Source: Thiotrichaceae bacterium (GTDB taxonomy: Bacteria > Pseudomonadota > Gammaproteobacteria > Thiotrichales > Thiotrichaceae). Taken from it: DNA of 14,231 bases. Positions 2,980 to 13,011 of this stretch are shown here, in pieces. Under the pieces are notes generated by a model. It had not been told where the DNA came from. It was given only the letters and a program-made list of their open reading frames with translations, and searched no databases. Every line of letters begins with the position of its first letter. The first letter of the stretch is position 1. The stretch spans positions 1 to 14,231 of the forward strand of contig JALVDG010000097.1 in the NCBI GenBank assembly GCA_027009095.1, written 5' to 3'. The position numbers and the translations under genes are program-made.

Positions 2980-4716
2980 TTAACTAACGGCTTGTTTCTG
3001 ACAAAAGGAAGCTCCCGACATATCAAAAAGTTTTTTCATCTGCTGTCCTGAGTTATAAGGCGTTATTACTTTAATATTATTTTTCTCTAATGTTTTTATT
3101 GCATTAGCTAATTTCATTACCTGTTGCTTATTTTTTATATTATTCATAACCCATTTTTTTGAAAATCTTACATATTTTGGCTTAATAAAGCTTAATAGTG
3201 CTTTTGTATGGTGATCTATCTCAAAATTATCAACACCTATAGCACAATCGAGACGCTCTAAAACTTGCTTTAAGTTTTCAATATTTTTCTCTTTATCAGC
3301 AAATCCTTCTGCTAAGGATAAGAGAAAAGTACATCCAGTTGCATTATTAGCTAATCGAAGCAAGCCAGTTTTAAGCCAATTAACTAACATACTGTCTTTT
3401 AGTGAAGATTCTGTCAAAGGTATTAATAACTCCATATTTTTCGATTTACCTTGTCTTAAACGCTGGAATAAAAGAACAAGCATTAGCTGATCCCAAAATA
3501 TATCATGGTATTTTTTAGGTAATTTACTTGATATTTTCTTATGTTCTAGCTCTGATACATTCAAATCGACCATGTATTGTCTGCCTGAATTATTTTTCTT
3601 ATTTAAGTATTCTAGCTGAGAGAGATTAAGTGATACTTCTCTTCTTTCTAAAACGTGTTTCAATAAAGCATTAAAATGCTTAGGTCGCTTAGTTTTGTAT
3701 ACTTCTTTACTTATTCGTCGTTGATTCAAATCTTTTTGTACCCGATTTTTTGCCCTATTAGCGGTATTTTCTTTCACTATAATAGGATCGGTCACCTTGC
3801 TAGTGTTAGATGACACAGATGAGTCGCCATCCCAAGGAGAAGAAGGCTTTTCATTTATAGACATATCAGCAGAATCATCAACCCCTAACGCTTTTACCTT
3901 TTTTAAAGGAAGTCTATTACTTGAGCCTAACCGCCTTACCCAAAGTTGATAACAACGAGTACCACAAAATACGGTTGGTATCAGGCGAATACTGGCACGA
4001 AAATCCTTACCTTTTAATGGATGTAAGGTAACAATTAATGCAGATGCCTTTATATTTCGCTCATCATACTGACGTACAAAATCAAAAAATACAGCTCTTT
4101 CATCCTCAAGAATTAAATCGGAAACTGCTGTTAGCTTTAAACTATGCAACGAACCATGTGAAAATAAATTAAGGTAGGTTTCATTAGCATAGAGGTGCAT
4201 GTCATCCATTATATAAGCGACAGCCTCAGAGCTAGAATCAACTAACCAATGACAACGTTGCTCCGAAACACGTAGTAATGACTTACAACTACGAAATTCT
4301 GATTTCAAATAGGCGTATTGAGTTAAAAATTTCAGAGCAAGATTAGATGTTGAGCCAGCTGGACTATAGTGCAAATTACAAACCTGCACACCTTTATAAC
4401 CTGCTTTAGAGACCAAAGCGGATTGGGGCTTCTCATCATTTAATGAAATTAAAATAGCTTCAGAGGCATTTTTTCTCATCAACTCTGCTAAGCCTTCAAG
4501 TGATAAACCACTCTCTTTAAAAAGAAAAACCATACTTAATTTCTTATTAAGCAGAGCCTTTTTCACCTTTACAACATCATTATCGATTAAATCAATTTTG
4601 ATATTTTCTGGGTATTTGCTTAACGTCTGTACAAGCGCTGGATAGCGCCCTATTTGACCTCTTATAACAAGACAATGTAATTTTTGTTGATTCATGCCCC
4701 CAAAGTAAATGATCAC
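2980..4716 (-). CDS. REC-like / PAS / degenerate EAL signalling protein (FimX-like)
   Basis: The 578-residue cytosolic protein has no membrane segment. Residues 11-135 resemble a receiver fold (CLVIRG, then VFLFKESG and ILISLND strands) but lack a clear phospho-acceptor aspartate. A PAS-like domain follows at about 145-265 (HWLVDSSSEAVAYIMDDM). A polar, Ser- and Lys-rich linker occupies 266-345 where a GGDEF domain would be expected. Residues 347-575 align in pattern with an EAL domain: GVDNFEIDHHTKALLSFIKP (494-513) is the counterpart of the DDFG segment, and IKVITPYNSGQQMKKLF (548-564) of the final strands. The catalytic EAL and DDFGTG residues are absent, so c-di-GMP hydrolysis is unlikely; binding without catalysis, as in FimX, is the natural inference. 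The track start is GTG at 4716; an ATG at 4695 (residue 8) is an alternative, although its G-rich stretch is only one base upstream. Neither has a good ribosome site. Confidence 0.75.
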   Translation of the reverse strand: MIIYFGGMNQQKLHCLVIRGQIGRYPALVQTLSKYPENIKIDLIDNDVVKVKKALLNKKLSMVFLFKESGLSLEGLAELMRKNASEAILISLNDEKPQSALVSKAGYKGVQVCNLHYSPAGSTSNLALKFLTQYAYLKSEFRSCKSLLRVSEQRCHWLVDSSSEAVAYIMDDMHLYANETYLNLFSHGSLHSLKLTAVSDLILEDERAVFFDFVRQYDERNIKASALIVTLHPLKGKDFRASIRLIPTVFCGTRCYQLWVRRLGSSNRLPLKKVKALGVDDSADMSINEKPSSPWDGDSSVSSNTSKVTDPIIVKENTANRAKNRVQKDLNQRRISKEVYKTKRPKHFNALLKHVLERREVSLNLSQLEYLNKKNNSGRQYMVDLNVSELEHKKISSKLPKKYHDIFWDQLMLVLLFQRLRQGKSKNMELLIPLTESSLKDSMLVNWLKTGLLRLANNATGCTFLLSLAEGFADKEKNIENLKQVLERLDCAIGVDNFEIDHHTKALLSFIKPKYVRFSKKWVMNNIKNKQQVMKLANAIKTLEKNNIKVITPYNSGQQMKKLFDMSGASFCQKQAVS

Positions 4717-5101
4717 AAGAGATTGTTCATCTTCTGTGCAGATTACTGTTGCAACTTAGGTGACTAGAGGCAAATTACTAAGAAAAATAGCAAATTATAA
4801 TCAATTAATTTTATAAAAATTATACTTCTTTATTTTAAATTTTCTACCGAGCAAGAGCTTACGCATCAGCACTTTAATGTACAACATCTCTTTCCAAATA
4901 CTATTTTTATAACAATTAAGCTCTCTTTATCGGAATTTATCCCTATACTTATCGCGATGGACTCACCAAAGATAAATCTTATACTTTAAAGTACACCAAG
5001 CTATTTTCAACACGATGTCCTCAAAATAATCATTTCTTTTATTTATTTGTAACTATAATCAGGACTAATTTTAAATTAGCAAAAATCAAACGGCAAAAAA
5101 T
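4717..5101. promoter_or_regulatory. Divergent intergenic region with candidate permease promoter
   Basis: This 385-bp AT-rich gap separates the minus-strand EAL-type gene from the plus-strand permease and must hold both promoters. A perfect TATAAT on the plus strand at 5054-5059, 42 bp before the permease ATG, is the best -10 candidate. The matching -35 region (about 5031-5036) is poor, suggesting an activator or a leader with weak basal expression. The permease ribosome site is weak (ACGG at about 5089-5092). I see no RNA gene or riboswitch fold in this gap. Confidence 0.35.
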
Positions 5102-7075: not shown

Positions 7076-7237
7076 TACTCCAACCGTTATATTGACGGAT
7101 ACAGCGAGTCAGAAAGCGGTTAGCCACTAGGCGCACTTTTTGTGAATGGTTATTCCCCTTCATAAAAAGTGCAACAACGTGGATGACCGCTTTCTGGCTC
7201 GTCCTGCAGGAGCAATATAACGTGGTTGGAGCACTAG
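7072..7237. mobile_element. 166-bp palindromic MITE-like element (CTAG family, long copy)
   Basis: Both ends are CTAG followed by near-identical inverted repeats: left CTAGTACTCCAACC then GTTATATTG; right, read inwards, CTAGTGCTCCAACCAC then GTTATATTG. The palindrome continues inwards: CAGAAAGCGGT pairs with ACCGCTTTCTG (about 7111-7195), and GCACTTTTTGTGAA pairs with TTCATAAAAAGTGC, closing on a loop TGGTTATTCCC (7147-7157). No reading frame fills it. Other copies at 8377 and 12947 share the terminus. It starts on the stop codon of the permease gene, so the mRNA 3' end can fold into one long hairpin that may terminate or protect the transcript. TA or CTAG duplication at the edges would fit an IS630/mariner-type or IS5-type origin; which one is inference. 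Confidence 0.8.
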
Positions 7238-7482
7238 AATCAGATTTATTCTGATACTGGGTTAGGACGGGCTATTCAAAAACTATTGACTTTGGTTATC
7301 AAGGTCAATAGTTGCCATCAAGAAGATTTAAACTTTCTCCTCCTAGGCGAACAGACTTTTTATCTGTTATCTTTATGACCAACTGATTAATTGCGCTCTA
7401 TGCGGTGTTTGTAGGTATAAGTGAGCACCTCTAATGCAGTAGTCGGAAAAAATATATAATATTTCTTCTATATTGCGTAATA
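7238..7482. other. Intergenic region with small hairpins, no gene seen
   Basis: Between the 166-bp element and the SH3-like gene there is no credible reading frame. It holds three short perfect hairpins: ATCAGA/TCTGAT (7239-7255), the stronger stem at 7281-7313 listed separately, and AACAGA/TCTGTT (7351-7369). Nothing else is recognisable. Confidence 0.5.
7281..7313 (-). terminator. Likely intrinsic terminator for the SH3-like gene
   Basis: AACTATTGAC (7281-7290) pairs perfectly with GTCAATAGTT (7304-7313), and TTTG/CAAG extend the stem to 14 pairs with one wobble around a 5-base loop. On the minus strand the stem is followed by TTTG, giving a short U-tract. It lies about 170 bp past the stop of the minus-strand gene ending at 7483, rather far for its terminator, and has no U-tract on the plus strand. 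Confidence 0.4.
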
Positions 7483-8376: not shown

Positions 8377-8482
8377 CTAGTACGTTTTGACAAGGGAATA
8401 ACCATTGTCTGCAACCCATGCCTTGTCTTGAACGCTTTGGTTTGCTTCTGTATCCGTCAATATAACGTGGTTGGAGTACTAG
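8377..8482. mobile_element. 106-bp remnant of the CTAG-family palindromic element
   Basis: The right end, read inwards on the minus strand, is CTAGTACTCCAACCAC then GTTATATTGACGGATACAG, identical to the left end of the copy at 12947. The left end is CTAGTAC followed by GTTTTGAC, as if about 9 bases of the terminal repeat were deleted. The 13 bases GGGAATAACCATT (8394-8406) match, in reverse complement, the central loop of the 166-bp copy (7145-7157), at nearly the same distance from the intact end (77 against 73 bp). It is therefore one full arm, the centre and a truncated second arm. It lies upstream of the SH3-like gene, within its possible promoter zone. Confidence 0.7.
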
Positions 8483-8591: not shown

Positions 8592-9353
8592 CTAATACAT
8601 CATCGCGGCAAAACGCTCTCCTAAGACCAACTGTCCTTGGGTACTAAAGTGAACTTGATCACTTATTTTATTTAAATCATCAGTAGGAATTATATGGATA
8701 AATTCTGATGACTGTGCAATATGTTCTTGAGCTAACTTCACTTCAGGTACAGCAGGTCTAAATGAAGTTGGAATACTAATACGAGCAAGAACAAAGACTA
8801 ATTTATCATTTTTAAAATCATGCTTTAGCATTTTAATAAAAGTCTTCATGTTTTTTTCATATGCACTTGCTAACTGTTTTGATTTAGCATCACGCTCACC
8901 ATGCATCCATAGTACACCGTCAATTTTAGGAAGTACCCCCTTATTAGATTTTTTTACTTGTTTTATTAGAGTATCGTAGTGCTTCCCTGCGTCTCTCGAA
9001 ACCCAGTCTTTCATTAACGAACCACCAGGAGCAAATTTAATAAGACGAATAGAAGAGTTAGGATATTTTTTTACAATCGATTTAGCAAAAGTAACTTCAG
9101 GACCAAACTTATTTAACGTTAAAAGGGATGTTAATTCACCATTCAAATAAAACTGCACATGACTATCTAGTACTTTTTGTTGCTCATTTAGCTCACTAAC
9201 TAAACCTTGCCCAGCCATATTCGACTGTCCCAAAAGTAAATATGTGCGTTGTTTTTTTGTAGGAATAGTAGATGTTTTAGTTTCGGCAACTGATACAGAA
9301 AAGATAAATAAAAAAAAGAGTGTACTAAGGGGTAATATTACTTTTTTTAACAT
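8592..9353 (-). CDS. Exported SGNH/sialate O-acetylesterase-like hydrolase
   Basis: The 253-residue protein has a Sec signal peptide (MLKKVILPLSTLFFLFIFSVSVAE) and then a SASA-type SGNH hydrolase fold, which removes acetyl or other acyl esters from carbohydrates in the periplasm or outside. Seen: block I LLLGQSNMAGQG (39-50) with nucleophile Ser44; GPEVTFAK (84-91); KFAPGGS (106-112); the block III region LWMHGERDA (148-156), where relatives usually have WHQGE-D; and the C-terminal DQVHFS (232-237) supplying Asp/His of the triad. All catalytic elements appear present, and the length is normal for a single-domain member. The substrate is unknown; a glycan ester is most likely. Neighbours on either side are separated by repeat elements, so it is probably transcribed alone. 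Confidence 0.85.
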   Translation of the reverse strand: MLKKVILPLSTLFFLFIFSVSVAETKTSTIPTKKQRTYLLLGQSNMAGQGLVSELNEQQKVLDSHVQFYLNGELTSLLTLNKFGPEVTFAKSIVKKYPNSSIRLIKFAPGGSLMKDWVSRDAGKHYDTLIKQVKKSNKGVLPKIDGVLWMHGERDAKSKQLASAYEKNMKTFIKMLKHDFKNDKLVFVLARISIPTSFRPAVPEVKLAQEHIAQSSEFIHIIPTDDLNKISDQVHFSTQGQLVLGERFAAMMY

Positions 9354-9396
9354 GAATAGCCTTTGTTTTAATTATTTCAAAAATATGTGAATAATT

Positions 9397-9419
9397 GTTT
9401 TAAAAAGATTTTTTAAAAC
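9397..9419. repeat. 23-bp AT-rich palindrome upstream of the hydrolase gene
   Basis: GTTTTAAAAA and its exact complement TTTTTAAAAC flank a GAT centre. It lies 44 bp before the start of the 9353 gene. It could be a regulator site or part of the promoter, or fold as a weak A-U hairpin. Composition alone makes such palindromes fairly likely here, so confidence is low. Confidence 0.3.
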
Positions 9420-9433
9420 ATCATTCTTTATAA

Positions 9434-9574
9434 GTTACCACTCAGCATAATCGGTAACTGCTCAGATTGCGCTCTATTTTGTTCGAGTTCAAGATAAAAG
9501 GGCGGATTATAAGCCATAAATGAACACTTTTAACGTAGAAACCAGGCAAAATAGAGTGCAAGCTGATTAGTTAC
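9434..9574. mobile_element. 141-bp MITE-like element (GTAAC family, copy A)
   Basis: The ends are GTTACCACTCAGC and, read inwards from the right, GTAACTAATCAGC. A second end-like block GTAACTGCTCAG lies 20 bp inside the left end. CTCTATTTTG (9472-9481) and its complement CAAAATAGAG (9547-9556) mark the inner limit of the inverted repeats. By hand alignment it is about 85% identical over its full length to the copy at 11362. The flanks CTTTATAA and CTTATAAA look like a decayed 8-bp target duplication. It ends 8 bp before the truC stop codon, on its downstream side, so it lies at the 3' end of the truC transcript. No reading frame is present. Confidence 0.8.
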
Positions 9575-9582
9575 CTTATAAA

Positions 9583-10311
9583 TTACTTATTATATTTGGG
9601 CAAGAAAAATATACTATCAACAACTACCTGAAAGTCATCCTGTAACCGAGCTTTTATTGAAATTTTATTTCCTGATAGTGGATGTTTTAAGCTAAGGCTA
9701 TCTGCATGTAGTAATAAACGATGGCAATTAAACTGCTCTCGAAATAAAGTATTGTGCTTACCGTCACCATGCGAGGTGTCGCCTATTATAGGGTGGAATA
9801 TATGCTTTAAATGACGGCGAAGTTGATGCTTTCGACCTGTTTCTGGTATTAAATTTAACAAAGAATAACGAGCGGTTGGGTAGCGACCTACTGCAAAGGG
9901 TAGTTCAGCTGTTGCTTGGCATTGGTAATTTGTTATCGCTTCTTGTGCTTCTTTATCTTGCTTTGCCTTTGAATCAGTCATTTTATCGAGCTGTTCTTTT
10001 AAGGCATAGTCAATCCTTCCCTCTTTCTCTGTATAGCCTCGTACAATAGCGATATAGCTTTTTTGTATCTGCTTTTCTGTAAATTGTTGTGATACATTTT
10101 TGGCAATGTTTTTATCTAAGGCAAATAACAATACACCTGATGTCGGTTTATCCAAACGATGCACAGGGTAAACATACTGACCTATCTGGTCGCGCGTTTG
10201 TTGAATGGCGAACTCTGTTTCATGACGGTCTATCATGCTTCGATGTACTAATAAGCCAGAGGGTTTATTTATCGCAACAAGAAAGTCGTCTTGATAGAGT
10301 ATTTCTAGCAT
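9583..10311 (-). CDS. truC: tRNA pseudouridine(65) synthase TruC
   Basis: The 242-residue RluA-family enzyme isomerises uridine to pseudouridine; the E. coli orthologue acts at position 65 of tRNAs in the cytoplasm. The match is recognisable from the first residues (MLEILYQDDFLVAINKPSGL, as in E. coli TruC) and through HRLDKPTSGVLL (51-62) with catalytic Asp54, GRYPTARYSL (142-151), GRKHQLRRHLKH (159-170), HPIIGDTSHGD (173-183) and the closing LLLHADSLSLKHPLSG region. Length is near the family norm, slightly shorter at the C-terminus. The start is fixed by this alignment although the ribosome site is weak. No gene overlaps it; a MITE-like element sits directly downstream and a 432-bp non-coding stretch upstream. 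Confidence 0.95.
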   Translation of the reverse strand: MLEILYQDDFLVAINKPSGLLVHRSMIDRHETEFAIQQTRDQIGQYVYPVHRLDKPTSGVLLFALDKNIAKNVSQQFTEKQIQKSYIAIVRGYTEKEGRIDYALKEQLDKMTDSKAKQDKEAQEAITNYQCQATAELPFAVGRYPTARYSLLNLIPETGRKHQLRRHLKHIFHPIIGDTSHGDGKHNTLFREQFNCHRLLLHADSLSLKHPLSGNKISIKARLQDDFQVVVDSIFFLPKYNK

Positions 10312-10461
10312 ATTAAAGGGGTTTCAATAAAAAAATCAAAATAATTGAGCCGTTACAGAAACTAAATTCGCAACTATTAGCAAATGGATCTAGTCACAGT
10401 AAAAAAGCCTGAATAAGTGACCTCATTTTTGCTATAAAACGAGCCTATAAAAATACAGCGC

Positions 10462-10516
10462 GTCATAGAACTTCCCGACTTTTCCAGAAAGTCGTACCCC
10501 ATGAAGGTTTTATGAC
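10462..10516. repeat. Nested stem-loop
   Basis: The outer arms GTCATAGAACTTC (10462-10474) and GAAGGTTTTATGAC (10503-10516) pair with one bulge and two mismatches. Inside them CGACTTT (10476-10482) and AAAGTCG (10488-10494) form a perfect 7-bp stem with a 5-base loop. The nesting suggests a real RNA fold or a palindromic repeat. The transcribed strand is unclear. Confidence 0.4.
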
Positions 10517-10646
10517 ATTTTAAGCATGTGACTTAAGGTGTTCACTACTTAATAAATATCTACATGGACGTAGGGGATGCTGTAAAAACGATAGCTTGAG
10601 TGAGGTCTCTTATACAGACTTAGTGTTTAGCTTGCACATAAATAGA

Positions 10647-10700
10647 AAGGAGTTAGCTTTAGCTAGTGTGGGTTCGCACAAGCTAAGGCTTGAACTCCTT
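10647..10700 (-). terminator. Long hairpin downstream of the DUF3501 operon
   Basis: AAGGAGTT (10647-10654) pairs exactly with AACTCCTT (10693-10700). The stem continues inwards through TTAGCTAGTGTG / CACAAGCTAA with few mismatches, to a GGTTCG-like apex. It begins 44 bp past the DUF3501 stop on the minus strand. The minus-strand trailer is pyrimidine-rich (CTCCTTTCTATTT), but not a clean U-run. It probably ends or stabilises the operon transcript. Confidence 0.5.
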
Positions 10701-10743
10701 GGATTTAGAAATTATTTATCTGAAAAATAATAAAAGGTATTAA

Positions 10744-11337
10744 TTAGCTTAAATCACCTGCTAAAGACTTACGCACATTTTCTGCAACGGGTTCTAAAGC
10801 ATAATGATAGTTTTCATGCTCTATACCCATATTAATTGCTGCACCTGCTTTTACAGCACTCGACATTTCGTCACTCAGTTCAAAACGCATAAAATGCACG
10901 GAGGAAGTTTTATCTTCGGTTTCACGCTCTAGGTCTTCATTTGAAACAGGATAAACCTTGTCAAAACCTTCGACTTGTACCCATGTTTTTTTATCAATCC
11001 CTAGTAGTTTTCCCAGTGCAGTTGCACGCTCATCGGGGTCACTATACTCAAGCATTAAGGTCGCTTTCCAGTTGCTACCTGTTGGAATTAAGGGGTTATA
11101 AGCATCAAGCTCTTCCTGGATACCTTCTGCATCAAATATTTTCTCTGCACGCAACATTTCTTGTATTTGATACTGCATAGTCAAACGATCTTCAAAAAGT
11201 AAAGAGGCATTATCTCCAATGGCTACACGACGGTTTTTCTTATGTGCCATTACTTTTTGACGATATTCATTACGCATCTCATTGTATTGCTCAAGACTGT
11301 ATAAATCATCGCGACTTAGTTTATTTTGGGTTGTCAT
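10744..11337 (-). CDS. DUF3501 family protein
   Basis: The 197-residue soluble protein matches the DUF3501 family along its whole length. Landmarks are KLSRDDLYSLEQY (6-18), KVMAHKKNRRVAIGDNASLL (28-47), FEDRLTMQYQIQEMLRAEKI (48-67), the strongly conserved EELDAYNPLIPTGSNWKATL (74-93), and EDKTSSVHFMRFELS (141-155). The biochemical role is unknown. In many proteobacteria it is encoded directly after rubrerythrin and a CCG-type Fe-S protein, as here, implying a shared stress or redox function. The ATG has AGGA 11 bases upstream. Between its start and the preceding gene sits a 142-bp mobile element that moved the two genes apart from an original spacing of about 15 bp. Confidence 0.92.
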   Translation of the reverse strand: MTTQNKLSRDDLYSLEQYNEMRNEYRQKVMAHKKNRRVAIGDNASLLFEDRLTMQYQIQEMLRAEKIFDAEGIQEELDAYNPLIPTGSNWKATLMLEYSDPDERATALGKLLGIDKKTWVQVEGFDKVYPVSNEDLERETEDKTSSVHFMRFELSDEMSSAVKAGAAINMGIEHENYHYALEPVAENVRKSLAGDLS

Positions 11338-11353
11338 TGTGTGATTAATCCTT

Positions 11354-11361
11354 TAATCCGA
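11354..11361. repeat. Target-site duplication, left copy
   Basis: TAATCCGA, repeated exactly at 11504-11511. The two copies flank the 142-bp element at 11362-11503. Eight base pairs is the duplication length known for the IS66 family. Confidence 0.85.
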
Positions 11362-11503
11362 GTAACTACTCAGTATAATCAATAACTGCTCAGTTTGAGC
11401 TCTATTTTGTTCGAGTTCAAGGCAAAAGGGCGGAGTTTATCAGTATAAATGAGCACTTTTAACGCAGAAATCGGGCAAAATAGAGTTCAAGCTGAGTAGT
11501 TAC
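11362..11503. mobile_element. 142-bp MITE-like element (GTAAC family, copy B)
   Basis: Perfect 12-bp terminal inverted repeats: GTAACTACTCAG at 11362-11373 and CTGAGTAGTTAC at 11492-11503. The right arm continues inwards as CTTGAACTCTATTTTG and matches a second, inner end-like block on the left (TAACTGCTCAG, then TTTGAGCTCTATTTTG), so the left end seems to carry a 20-bp partial duplication of the terminus. An exact 8-bp direct repeat flanks it. Terminal GTAA and an 8-bp duplication are IS66-family traits, so a non-autonomous IS66-type element is the best guess. There is no coding content. It sits within the rubrerythrin operon between the Fe-S and DUF3501 genes, and its first base completes the Fe-S gene's stop codon. 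Confidence 0.85.
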
Positions 11504-12834
11504 TAATCCGAAATGCCATAAGCTAGGCGTAATAAGGTAAGTGGATGATATGGTTTAGAATCATCCTTGAGCCCTGTTGCTATTTGATGACCTGCCATTG
11601 GACAATCACTACTGTAATAGTCCGACTGAGCCTTTTGTACTTTGCTGACAACAGGACGACAAATTTTCATCGACATATCGTGAAATTCACTTTTTACAGC
11701 AAATGTTCCGTCATGCCCCGAACAACGCTCGATAGTGTCAATACTAGTATCTTGAATGAGTGTAAGTAATTCACGCGTTTTTAAACCAATATTTTGTACT
11801 CGCAAATGACAAGCAGCGTGATAACTAATCTTTCCTAATGACTGGCTAAAATCGGTATTTAGCTTGCCTTCTTTATGACGCAGCATAAGGTATTCAAACG
11901 GGTCAAAGATATGTGCTTTTACTTTCTGCACCTGCTCATCATCAGGGTACATCAGTGGAAGCTCTTGTTTAAACATCAACACACAAGAAGGCACTGGGGC
12001 GATAATATCGTAGCCTTCATCAATCATTTTAGCTAATACAGGAATATTGAATTCTTTGGACTCATTCACTGCTTTAAGATCGCCTAATTCTAGCTTAGGC
12101 ATGCCACAACACTTTTCTTTTTCGACAAAAGTGACAGGGATTTTATTATGATCTAATACTTTAAAAAGGTCTTCGACGATATGTGGCTCATTGCGATTAC
12201 CATAGCAAGTGGCATAAATAGCCACTTTTCCTGTCGTTCTACCGACTGCTTCTGCGGTGTAATTTGAGCTATGATTAGCTAAACGCTTACGCGCAGTCTT
12301 ACTGTGATATTCAGGAATAGTGGCATCTGGATGTACACCTAATACTTTGTCTAAGCCTTTACGCACTAGCGCATTTTTATTCGCCGTATTCACTATTTGT
12401 GAAATAACAGGAATACCCGCTAAATTGCCCACAGTATCCGTTGCACTGAGTATTTTATCGCGTGTTTTTACCTCACCTTTTTTATGCTTAATGGCTTTTG
12501 CACGTAACATTAAATGCGGGAAGTCAATATTCCACTCATGGGGCGGAATGTACGGACATTTTGTCATATAACACAGGTCACAGAGATAGCACTGATCAAC
12601 CACTTTCCAGTAATCTTGTTTATCAACACCATCTACTTCAAAGGTTTCTGACTCATCAACAAGATCAAATAAAGTAGGAAACGATCCGCATAAGCTAACG
12701 CAACGACGACAACCGTGGCAGAGATCAAAGACACGTTCTAGCTCTTTATTTAAGGATGACTCATCATAAAAATCATCTGATTTCCAATCAAGAGGATGAC
12801 GTGTTGGGGCTTGCAGACTACCTTCGCGTGCCAT
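11503..12834 (-). CDS. CCG-domain Fe-S oxidoreductase (HdrD/GlpC-like)
   Basis: The protein has 443 residues from the chosen start. An N-terminal ferredoxin-like region has two cysteine clusters: CHGCRRCVSLC and CYLCDLCYMTKCP, enough ligands for two [4Fe-4S] clusters. Two CCG-type (DUF224) repeats follow, as in heterodisulfide reductase D and GlpC. The first has YATCYGNRNEPH and EKCCGMPKLELGD; the second has SYHAACHLRVQNIG and ERCSGHDGTFAVK, where CCG is replaced by CSG. It probably passes electrons to or from rubrerythrin; the partner is inferred from operon order. A GTG nine bases earlier (12843) is open, but GGAG sits 8 bases before ATG 12834 and overlaps that GTG, so ATG is the true start. 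The C-terminus ends GISD; a mobile element inserted in the stop codon and left the protein intact. Confidence 0.9.
   Translation of the reverse strand: MAREGSLQAPTRHPLDWKSDDFYDESSLNKELERVFDLCHGCRRCVSLCGSFPTLFDLVDESETFEVDGVDKQDYWKVVDQCYLCDLCYMTKCPYIPPHEWNIDFPHLMLRAKAIKHKKGEVKTRDKILSATDTVGNLAGIPVISQIVNTANKNALVRKGLDKVLGVHPDATIPEYHSKTARKRLANHSSNYTAEAVGRTTGKVAIYATCYGNRNEPHIVEDLFKVLDHNKIPVTFVEKEKCCGMPKLELGDLKAVNESKEFNIPVLAKMIDEGYDIIAPVPSCVLMFKQELPLMYPDDEQVQKVKAHIFDPFEYLMLRHKEGKLNTDFSQSLGKISYHAACHLRVQNIGLKTRELLTLIQDTSIDTIERCSGHDGTFAVKSEFHDMSMKICRPVVSKVQKAQSDYYSSDCPMAGHQIATGLKDDSKPYHPLTLLRLAYGISD
11504..11511. repeat. Target-site duplication, right copy
   Basis: TAATCCGA, identical to 11354-11361. 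It lies inside the last codons of the Fe-S gene (ISD and the first two bases of the stop, on the minus strand). Confidence 0.85.
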
Positions 12835-12925
12835 ATAAATCACTCCGCTTTCGCTGTATAAAAATAATTAGTTAAATTGTTAAAACTTAACTAATTACTC
12901 TTTTTAAGGAAGCTATACATTAAGT

Positions 12926-13011
12926 AATCCCCCTTTCTCGCTATCACTGTACTCCAACCACGTTATATTGACGGATACAGCGTGATTGGAGTACTAGGAA
13001 AAAGGGTGATT
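12926..13011. repeat. Operon-gap hairpin split by the minimal CTAG element
   Basis: AATCCCCCTTTCTC (12926-12939) and GAAAAAGGGTGATT (12998-13011) are inverted repeats with two mismatches over 14 bases. They lie on the two sides of the small element at 12947-12997. Removing the element leaves a hairpin with a loop of about 11 bases containing CTAG, the element's boundary sequence. In the mRNA this stands between rubrerythrin and the Fe-S gene and could reduce read-through or protect the rubrerythrin 3' end. Confidence 0.5.
12947..12997. mobile_element. 51-bp minimal copy of the CTAG-family element
   Basis: The left end TACTCCAACCAC followed by GTTATATTGACGGATACAG is identical to the intact arm of the 8377-8482 copy. 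The right end, read inwards, is CTAGTACTCCAATCACG. The arms meet directly; the whole centre is missing. The left border is CTG rather than CTAG, one base having been lost. It sits in the 184-bp gap between the rubrerythrin and Fe-S genes. Confidence 0.75.

Follow-up and report, generated by a model that had tools for sequence, protein, structure and literature searches.

How does a gene keep its reading frame closed when a transposable element lands inside its stop codon? The question is raised by the window studied here, that is, the whole 14,231-nt stretch of Thiotrichaceae DNA that was analysed, in which a short repeat separates two minus-strand genes of a presumed operon. The upstream gene (11503–12843) encodes a 446-aa GlpC-like Fe-S/cysteine-rich (CCG) protein (PF02754, 4e-12; the best NCBIfam match, NF008369, scored 224.5 bits, under its cut-off of 278), and the next gene (10744–11337) encodes a 197-aa DUF3501 protein (PF12007, 4.9e-74). 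The Fe-S reading frame ends in a TAG at 11505–11503 of the minus strand, of which TA belongs to a target duplication and G to the repeat itself, and the codon that follows, already inside the repeat, is an in-frame TAA.

The repeat is a non-autonomous transposon, or MITE, of 142 bp at 11362–11503, placed on the plus strand when oriented with its doubled end at the left. It lies between two perfect copies of the 8-bp target duplication TAATCCGA, the left one now on the DUF3501 side (11354–11361) and the right one on the side of the Fe-S gene (11504–11511), as the preliminary description of this DNA had already stated. The element is a long palindrome running from the outer left terminal inverted repeat GTAACTACTCAG (11362–11373, plus strand) to the right terminal inverted repeat CTGAGTAGTTAC (11492–11503, plus strand), and it holds neither a transposase gene nor, among the reading frames listed, any ORF of at least 80 aa. 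The 12-bp end motif occurs twice at the left end, 20 bp apart, and the inner repeat ATAACTGCTCAG (11382–11393, plus strand) is where the left end of a shorter class of copies sits.

Removal of the element and one duplication copy by script restored a junction that reads GGC ATT TCG GAT TAA, followed by 15 nt (AGGATTAATCACACA) and the DUF3501 ATG. The stop of the empty site is TAA and the present one is TAG, and both versions of the Fe-S protein end in ...LLRLAYGISD. The insertion split the TAA stop of the Fe-S gene after TA, and the terminal G of the element made TAG; this is automatic and needs no special mechanism, because the element simply starts with G after TA. The distance from the Fe-S stop to the DUF3501 ATG grew from 15 to 165 nt, an increase of 150. 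The ancestral gene end, the conversion of TA to TAG with an unchanged protein and the 150-bp growth of the gap had all been proposed in the preliminary description, and the script, the reading frames and the measured distances reproduce them. The AGGA at 11349–11352 (minus strand), a candidate ribosome-binding site 11 nt before the DUF3501 ATG, was left untouched and is plausibly still used, and the two genes are plausibly still co-transcribed. We also observed that AGGA sits in the loop of a small hairpin, GATTAA-AGGA-TTAATC (minus strand, 11343–11358), which is found in the present and the reconstructed sequence and is absent from the congener G002.

Relatives show what this junction looks like when uninterrupted. 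A search for DUF3501 gave a match in 31 of 57 genomes, the genome under study included, and in one of eight congeners, some of which are incomplete. In that congener, G002, the Fe-S protein has the same end ISD, encoded up to GAT TAA, followed by ATCTCAGACTAAAGGAATAACCCA and ATG without any insert, and the short gap carries TAAAGGA before the DUF3501 gene; no match to the element family was found in the G002 genome. The Fe-S tail lies upstream of DUF3501 in 28 of 29 loci of relatives (a different ORF takes its place at L040), and in 27 of these 28 its stop and the beginning of the DUF3501 match are no more than 98 nt apart, less than the length of the element, against 341 nt at L053. The insertion is present in one of the 30 loci examined. 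The insert-free junction of the reconstructed site reads ATTTCGGATTAAAGGATTAA. Its central 18 bases, searched among the congeners with up to three mismatches, gave 26 matches in nine genomes of the genus, compared with 18 for the reversed control, and the sole exact match was the right-hand junction of the window itself, recreated by the duplication. The preliminary description had proposed an empty site in relatives as a check: an uninterrupted orthologous junction exists in G002, and an identical one was not found either by reading that junction directly, which differs, or by the 18-base search in congeners. Comparative sequence evidence of this kind supports the insertion with an orthologous rather than an identical empty site.

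The element at 11362–11503 is one of many. The 27-mer of its right end, with up to three mismatches, has 113 matches in the 2.39-Mb genome of 461 contigs, some of which are both ends of one palindromic copy, and its reversed control has none. In 210,788 fetched bases from 78 contigs we counted 105 copies or pieces. Perfect 8-bp duplications flank 27 of 166 left/right end pairs in this fetched part of the genome, where 0.38 were expected from shuffled right flanks, and a further 15 pairs have duplications with one mismatch (0.71 in shuffles); perfect repeats of 9 or 10 bp were absent, and those of 5, 6 and 7 bp occurred once each, which marks a fixed target length of 8 bp. One of the 27 is a 212-bp entry with other ends (C417), which was dropped from the placement counts given below, and this leaves 41 copies in the genome with an 8-bp duplication of at most one mismatch; the element itself matches at least 40 places in the genome. 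Most of the copies fall at 140–143 bp (23 copies) or 121–123 bp (nine), three are 72 bp long and one 478 bp, and those of 121–123 bp start at the inner motif and have duplications of their own. Dispersed copies, together with the G002 junction as the empty site for the copy at 11362–11503, complete the picture of a MITE. Beyond this genome, family matches, several of them short, were found in 12 of 56 others searched (13 of 57 with its own genome), and loci from seven of these contain 37 further copies with duplications. Records with the exact conserved core come from MAGs labelled Thiotrichaceae, Gammaproteobacteria and, in one case, Aquificaceae, and also from Pleionea sp. CnH1-48, in a search that possibly left out records near the genome itself; no plasmid or phage copies were found at E 1e-3.

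Several other repeats deserve description. A second copy of the element lies in the window at 9434–9574 (plus strand); its two parts show 86% and 90% identity, and its flanks CTTTATAA and CTTATAAA look like a decayed duplication. On the right the 8-bp flank directly adjoins the stop codon of the 9583–10311 gene, presumably a pseudouridine synthase as judged by eye. The 478-bp version (C444, 17800–18277) has the same ends and the perfect duplication AAATCAAG around a mostly different interior. In Pleionea sp. CnH1-48 (L227, about 3900–4800) the conserved core forms a tandem array with a 90-bp period and lacks GTAAC ends. A different repeat family occupies 7080–7240 of the window, with pieces at 8448–8482 and 12949–12997; over both strands it matches the genome 45 times, with strong matches at about 12 distinct places.

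Which transposase moved these copies? The closest candidate is a complete 1473-bp IS66 element (L184) in G011, a genome of another genus in the same family, which encodes one 472-aa transposase (PF03050, E 8.5e-41; NF033517, 274.9 bits with a cut-off of 180). On both sides it carries 12-bp ends identical to the GTAACTACTCAG of the MITE, within the perfect duplication GATTTTTT; the sequence shared by the two elements is confined to the outer 12–16 bp, and G011 gave no family match among the 15 of 25 candidates scored. IS66 ends are described as starting with GTAAGCG and bordered by 8-bp repeats (PMC11946415), and classical ends are 20 to 30 bp long. The MITE has the 8-bp duplication and the GTAA start, and GTAACTACTCAG does not share the GCG. 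We call it IS66-type rather than classical IS66 because of this difference, and other IS66 elements deviate from GTAAGCG as well (GTAACCCTTCAC in L183 and GTATCTGCTCAA in L195, both with related ends and perfect 8-bp duplications). Since both the ends and the duplication length match an IS66 element in a genome of the same family, the parent of the MITE family is likely an IS66-type element. A resident parent was also considered and rejected: the element has no gene of its own, and PF03050 had no match in this genome in a search of 35 genomes that left out G022, G028, G033 and G034, all rich in the element. Mobilisation would therefore have come from an element since lost, unassembled or visiting. 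A further observation concerns the 212-bp C417 entry (16265–16476), which has ends like GTAACTTCTCAT and the duplication TTGGTTTA; its start resembles, by eye, IS66 fragment ends in the congeners G005 and G007, and it is perhaps a second IS66-type MITE.

An IS1-like parent would be the alternative to this IS66-type one, and it is suggested by a single place in the genome (L113, contig C201, 1501–1770) where the right end of the MITE is fused to a decayed gene with several broken frames, which by eye is reminiscent of an IS1-like zinc-finger transposase. There the minus strand reads KCTRCDSIKLKKNG...KFYCHDCGKYG and REIGRSLGV in broken frames into the right end of the family. We consider an IS1-like parent improbable: the IS1 catalytic domain (PF03400) has no match in this genome, three IS1-like loci of relatives (L199–L201) lack the GTAACTACTCAG ends, and the stretch shared at L113 opens with a short word of common occurrence, in keeping with a chance fusion; membership of the IS1 family was rejected on the first two grounds. 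Less credible still, and in our judgement close to negligible, is an assembly artefact in which the repeat was wrongly joined into the gap. Draft genomes of short contigs with some 100 copies or pieces of a repeat do invite such errors, but here the element lies within a 14.2-kb contig, the flanking genes adjoin in relatives too, and misassembly would not yield perfect 8-bp duplications at many separate copies. The same duplications allow a third alternative to be weighed, namely that the family selects stop codons or gene 3′ ends and that the Fe-S stop was hit by site selection. Empty sites were rebuilt for 78 insertions (41 here and 37 in relatives), and each was set against randomly drawn positions in its own gap. 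ORFs were called mechanically at 90 aa or more, with thresholds from 60 to 120 aa compared, and some of the counted genes may be spurious. Ten insertions inside called ORFs were set aside. At least one of these, C18:10365, does coincide with a stop codon but is covered by a downstream ORF that was called too long, and it is missing from counts in which it would have favoured targeting. Among the remaining 68, the duplication overlaps a stop in 11, with 5.55 expected from uniform placement (P 0.015), and the excess is strong at first in this genome (8 of 38 against 2.91, P 0.005; against 3.96 with target weighting, P 0.027). Weighting by target composition raises the overall expectation to 7.36 (P 0.088), and relatives show 3 of 30 against 2.65 flat or 3.4 weighted (P 0.51 and 0.72). 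With ORFs of at least 60 aa there are 10 of 64 against 7.92 weighted (P 0.25), and at 120 aa 10 of 68 against 6.07 (P 0.057); of the 64 insertions placed, convergent gaps received 13 and divergent gaps also 13. A/T prevails at two bases on either side of the duplication (92% and 82% over the 78 sites, 96% and 85% over the 14 in G044). Stops rich in A/T, together with a tolerance for insertions that do no harm, can account for most of the excess. Because the excess is weakened by composition weighting and absent in relatives, we see no firm targeting and rate site selection as unlikely, a little less so than an IS1-like parent.

Untargeted insertion suffices in any case, given what the ends do. 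A GTAA-ended element that lands behind the TA of a TAA or TAG stop gives TAG, and therefore neither repair nor targeting is needed; it follows from the sequence that GTAA yields TAG when it comes after TA, and NNG TAA wherever two codon bases precede it. Twenty-four gene approaches were found, defined as open frames of about 100 codons or more that reach the duplication or the element, some of them perhaps not genes. The stop lies unchanged within the duplication in 11 and was completed or supplied by the element in 13, six of the latter being the TAA of GTAA. The window is the one case of a split stop codon among the 78 insertions with duplications.

It could also be argued that the insertion was kept for a function, with its hairpin setting the Fe-S:DUF3501 ratio through slowed transcription, RNase III cutting or lost translational coupling across a gap that has grown from 15 to 165 nt. 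The minus-strand RNA across this gap is predicted to fold at −51.4 kcal/mol (z −5.2), and the full-length hairpin covaries across genomes. An alignment of 14 copies, drawn from seven genomes, has 96.3% of its cells paired, 14 of 46 pairs changed on both sides (8.8 in shuffles) and a covariation of 0.285, against 0.152 in shuffles (none of 500 as high) and 0.076 at most when slid; the structure itself was derived from this alignment, an advantage to it over the slid control. Further pair types number 31, not above shuffles (31.9). Against a function stand the single occurrence among 30 loci, a number of terminator-like sites at chance rate (3, with 2.6 in shuffles), the fact that the two such sites in the element are one 5-pair stem on both strands, and the lack of a clear orientation preference in tandem gaps (23 same, 15 opposite). 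We regard retention for a regulatory role as doubtful. Two more specific candidates were rejected, a terminator or promoter role of the element, for which counts equalled shuffles, and a known RNA family, for which Rfam gave two weak matches far below gathering scores (E up to 1, window 9300–11700).

A related reading is that, besides being a DNA transposon, the family is maintained as a structured RNA of one strand or as a single-strand hairpin. Its core hairpin covaries between genera, and on one strand departures from Watson-Crick pairs are G-U more frequently than A-C, an imbalance that double-stranded DNA by itself would not favour. One-step departures from the majority pair, counted over 104 copies, were G-U in 152 cases (24 at one pair) and A-C in 85 among 72 copies here, and 52 and 16 among 32 copies of relatives; with register positions outside the predicted pairs the counts were 153 to 92 and 53 to 22. 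The majority pairs in this genome include five G-U and no A-C. We treat the G-U excess only as a lead, because the pairs were predicted on the counted strand and the copies share descent, and maintenance as RNA is, like a regulatory role, a tentative proposition that we doubt. If true, the GTAA ends, which bring translation in one frame to a halt within two codons, would turn the family into an unusually harmless passenger of gene ends. Should the strand bias of its hairpin prove genuine, the family would become a candidate for a transcribed repeat RNA.

To return to the insertion itself, we consider it very probable that an IS66-type-mobilised MITE inserted in the Fe-S stop codon and completed that stop with its own G. 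Against this account weigh the lack of an identical empty site in the G002 junction and the 18-base search, the IS66 points given above (no PF03050 match in this genome, only the outer 12–16 bp shared with L184, no family match in G011, no GTAAGCG start) and the draft state of the genome in 461 contigs. An IS66-type transposase, from an element presumably no longer in this assembly, would have moved the 142-bp MITE of a large family into an 8-bp target made up of the last two Fe-S codons plus the TA of the stop. The target was duplicated, and the Fe-S reading frame passes into the element behind TA, where G completes TAG and TAA follows as the next codon. Neither the protein end nor the start region of DUF3501 has changed, and the gap is longer by 150 bp, a strong hairpin included.

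Insertion in this stop is an ordinary kind of event, brought about by one of many copies of the element. It nevertheless offers a clean example of a mobile element that enters an operon with neither protein changed, and a general and checkable rule, that any GTAA-ended element landing after the TA of a stop codon produces TAG. It also ties a high-copy repeat in MAGs labelled Thiotrichaceae and Gammaproteobacteria to IS66-type ends. Earlier papers already describe MITEs located at the ends of genes as well as repeats that carry stop codons in every frame (PMC5896051, PMC2229807), and the literature searched, seen in part, gave no description of this MITE family. Among known systems, the single-gene form of IS66 in G011 resembles the MITE in its 12-bp ends and 8-bp duplication, with an A/T-rich target at L184, whereas the MITE lacks the gene, and neither its interior nor its long inverted repeats beyond those ends match anything in L184. 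RUP, MITEPsy1 and the Thiomargarita MITEs are likewise short, with inverted repeats, many copies, duplications and no transposase. The hupL MITE of Thiomargarita, which has hits in 260 of 439 contigs, is bounded by repeats of 10 bp (PMC4853749), and MITEPsy1 by repeats of 4 nt (PMC3189936), in contrast to the 8 bp found here. The nearest parallel in position is QMITE2 of Coxiella burnetii, which lies at the 3′ end of enhC and likewise bears on where a reading frame stops; there the presumed effect of the MITE is a gain of 33 residues in a single strain (PMC5896051), whereas the Fe-S protein described here ends exactly as before.
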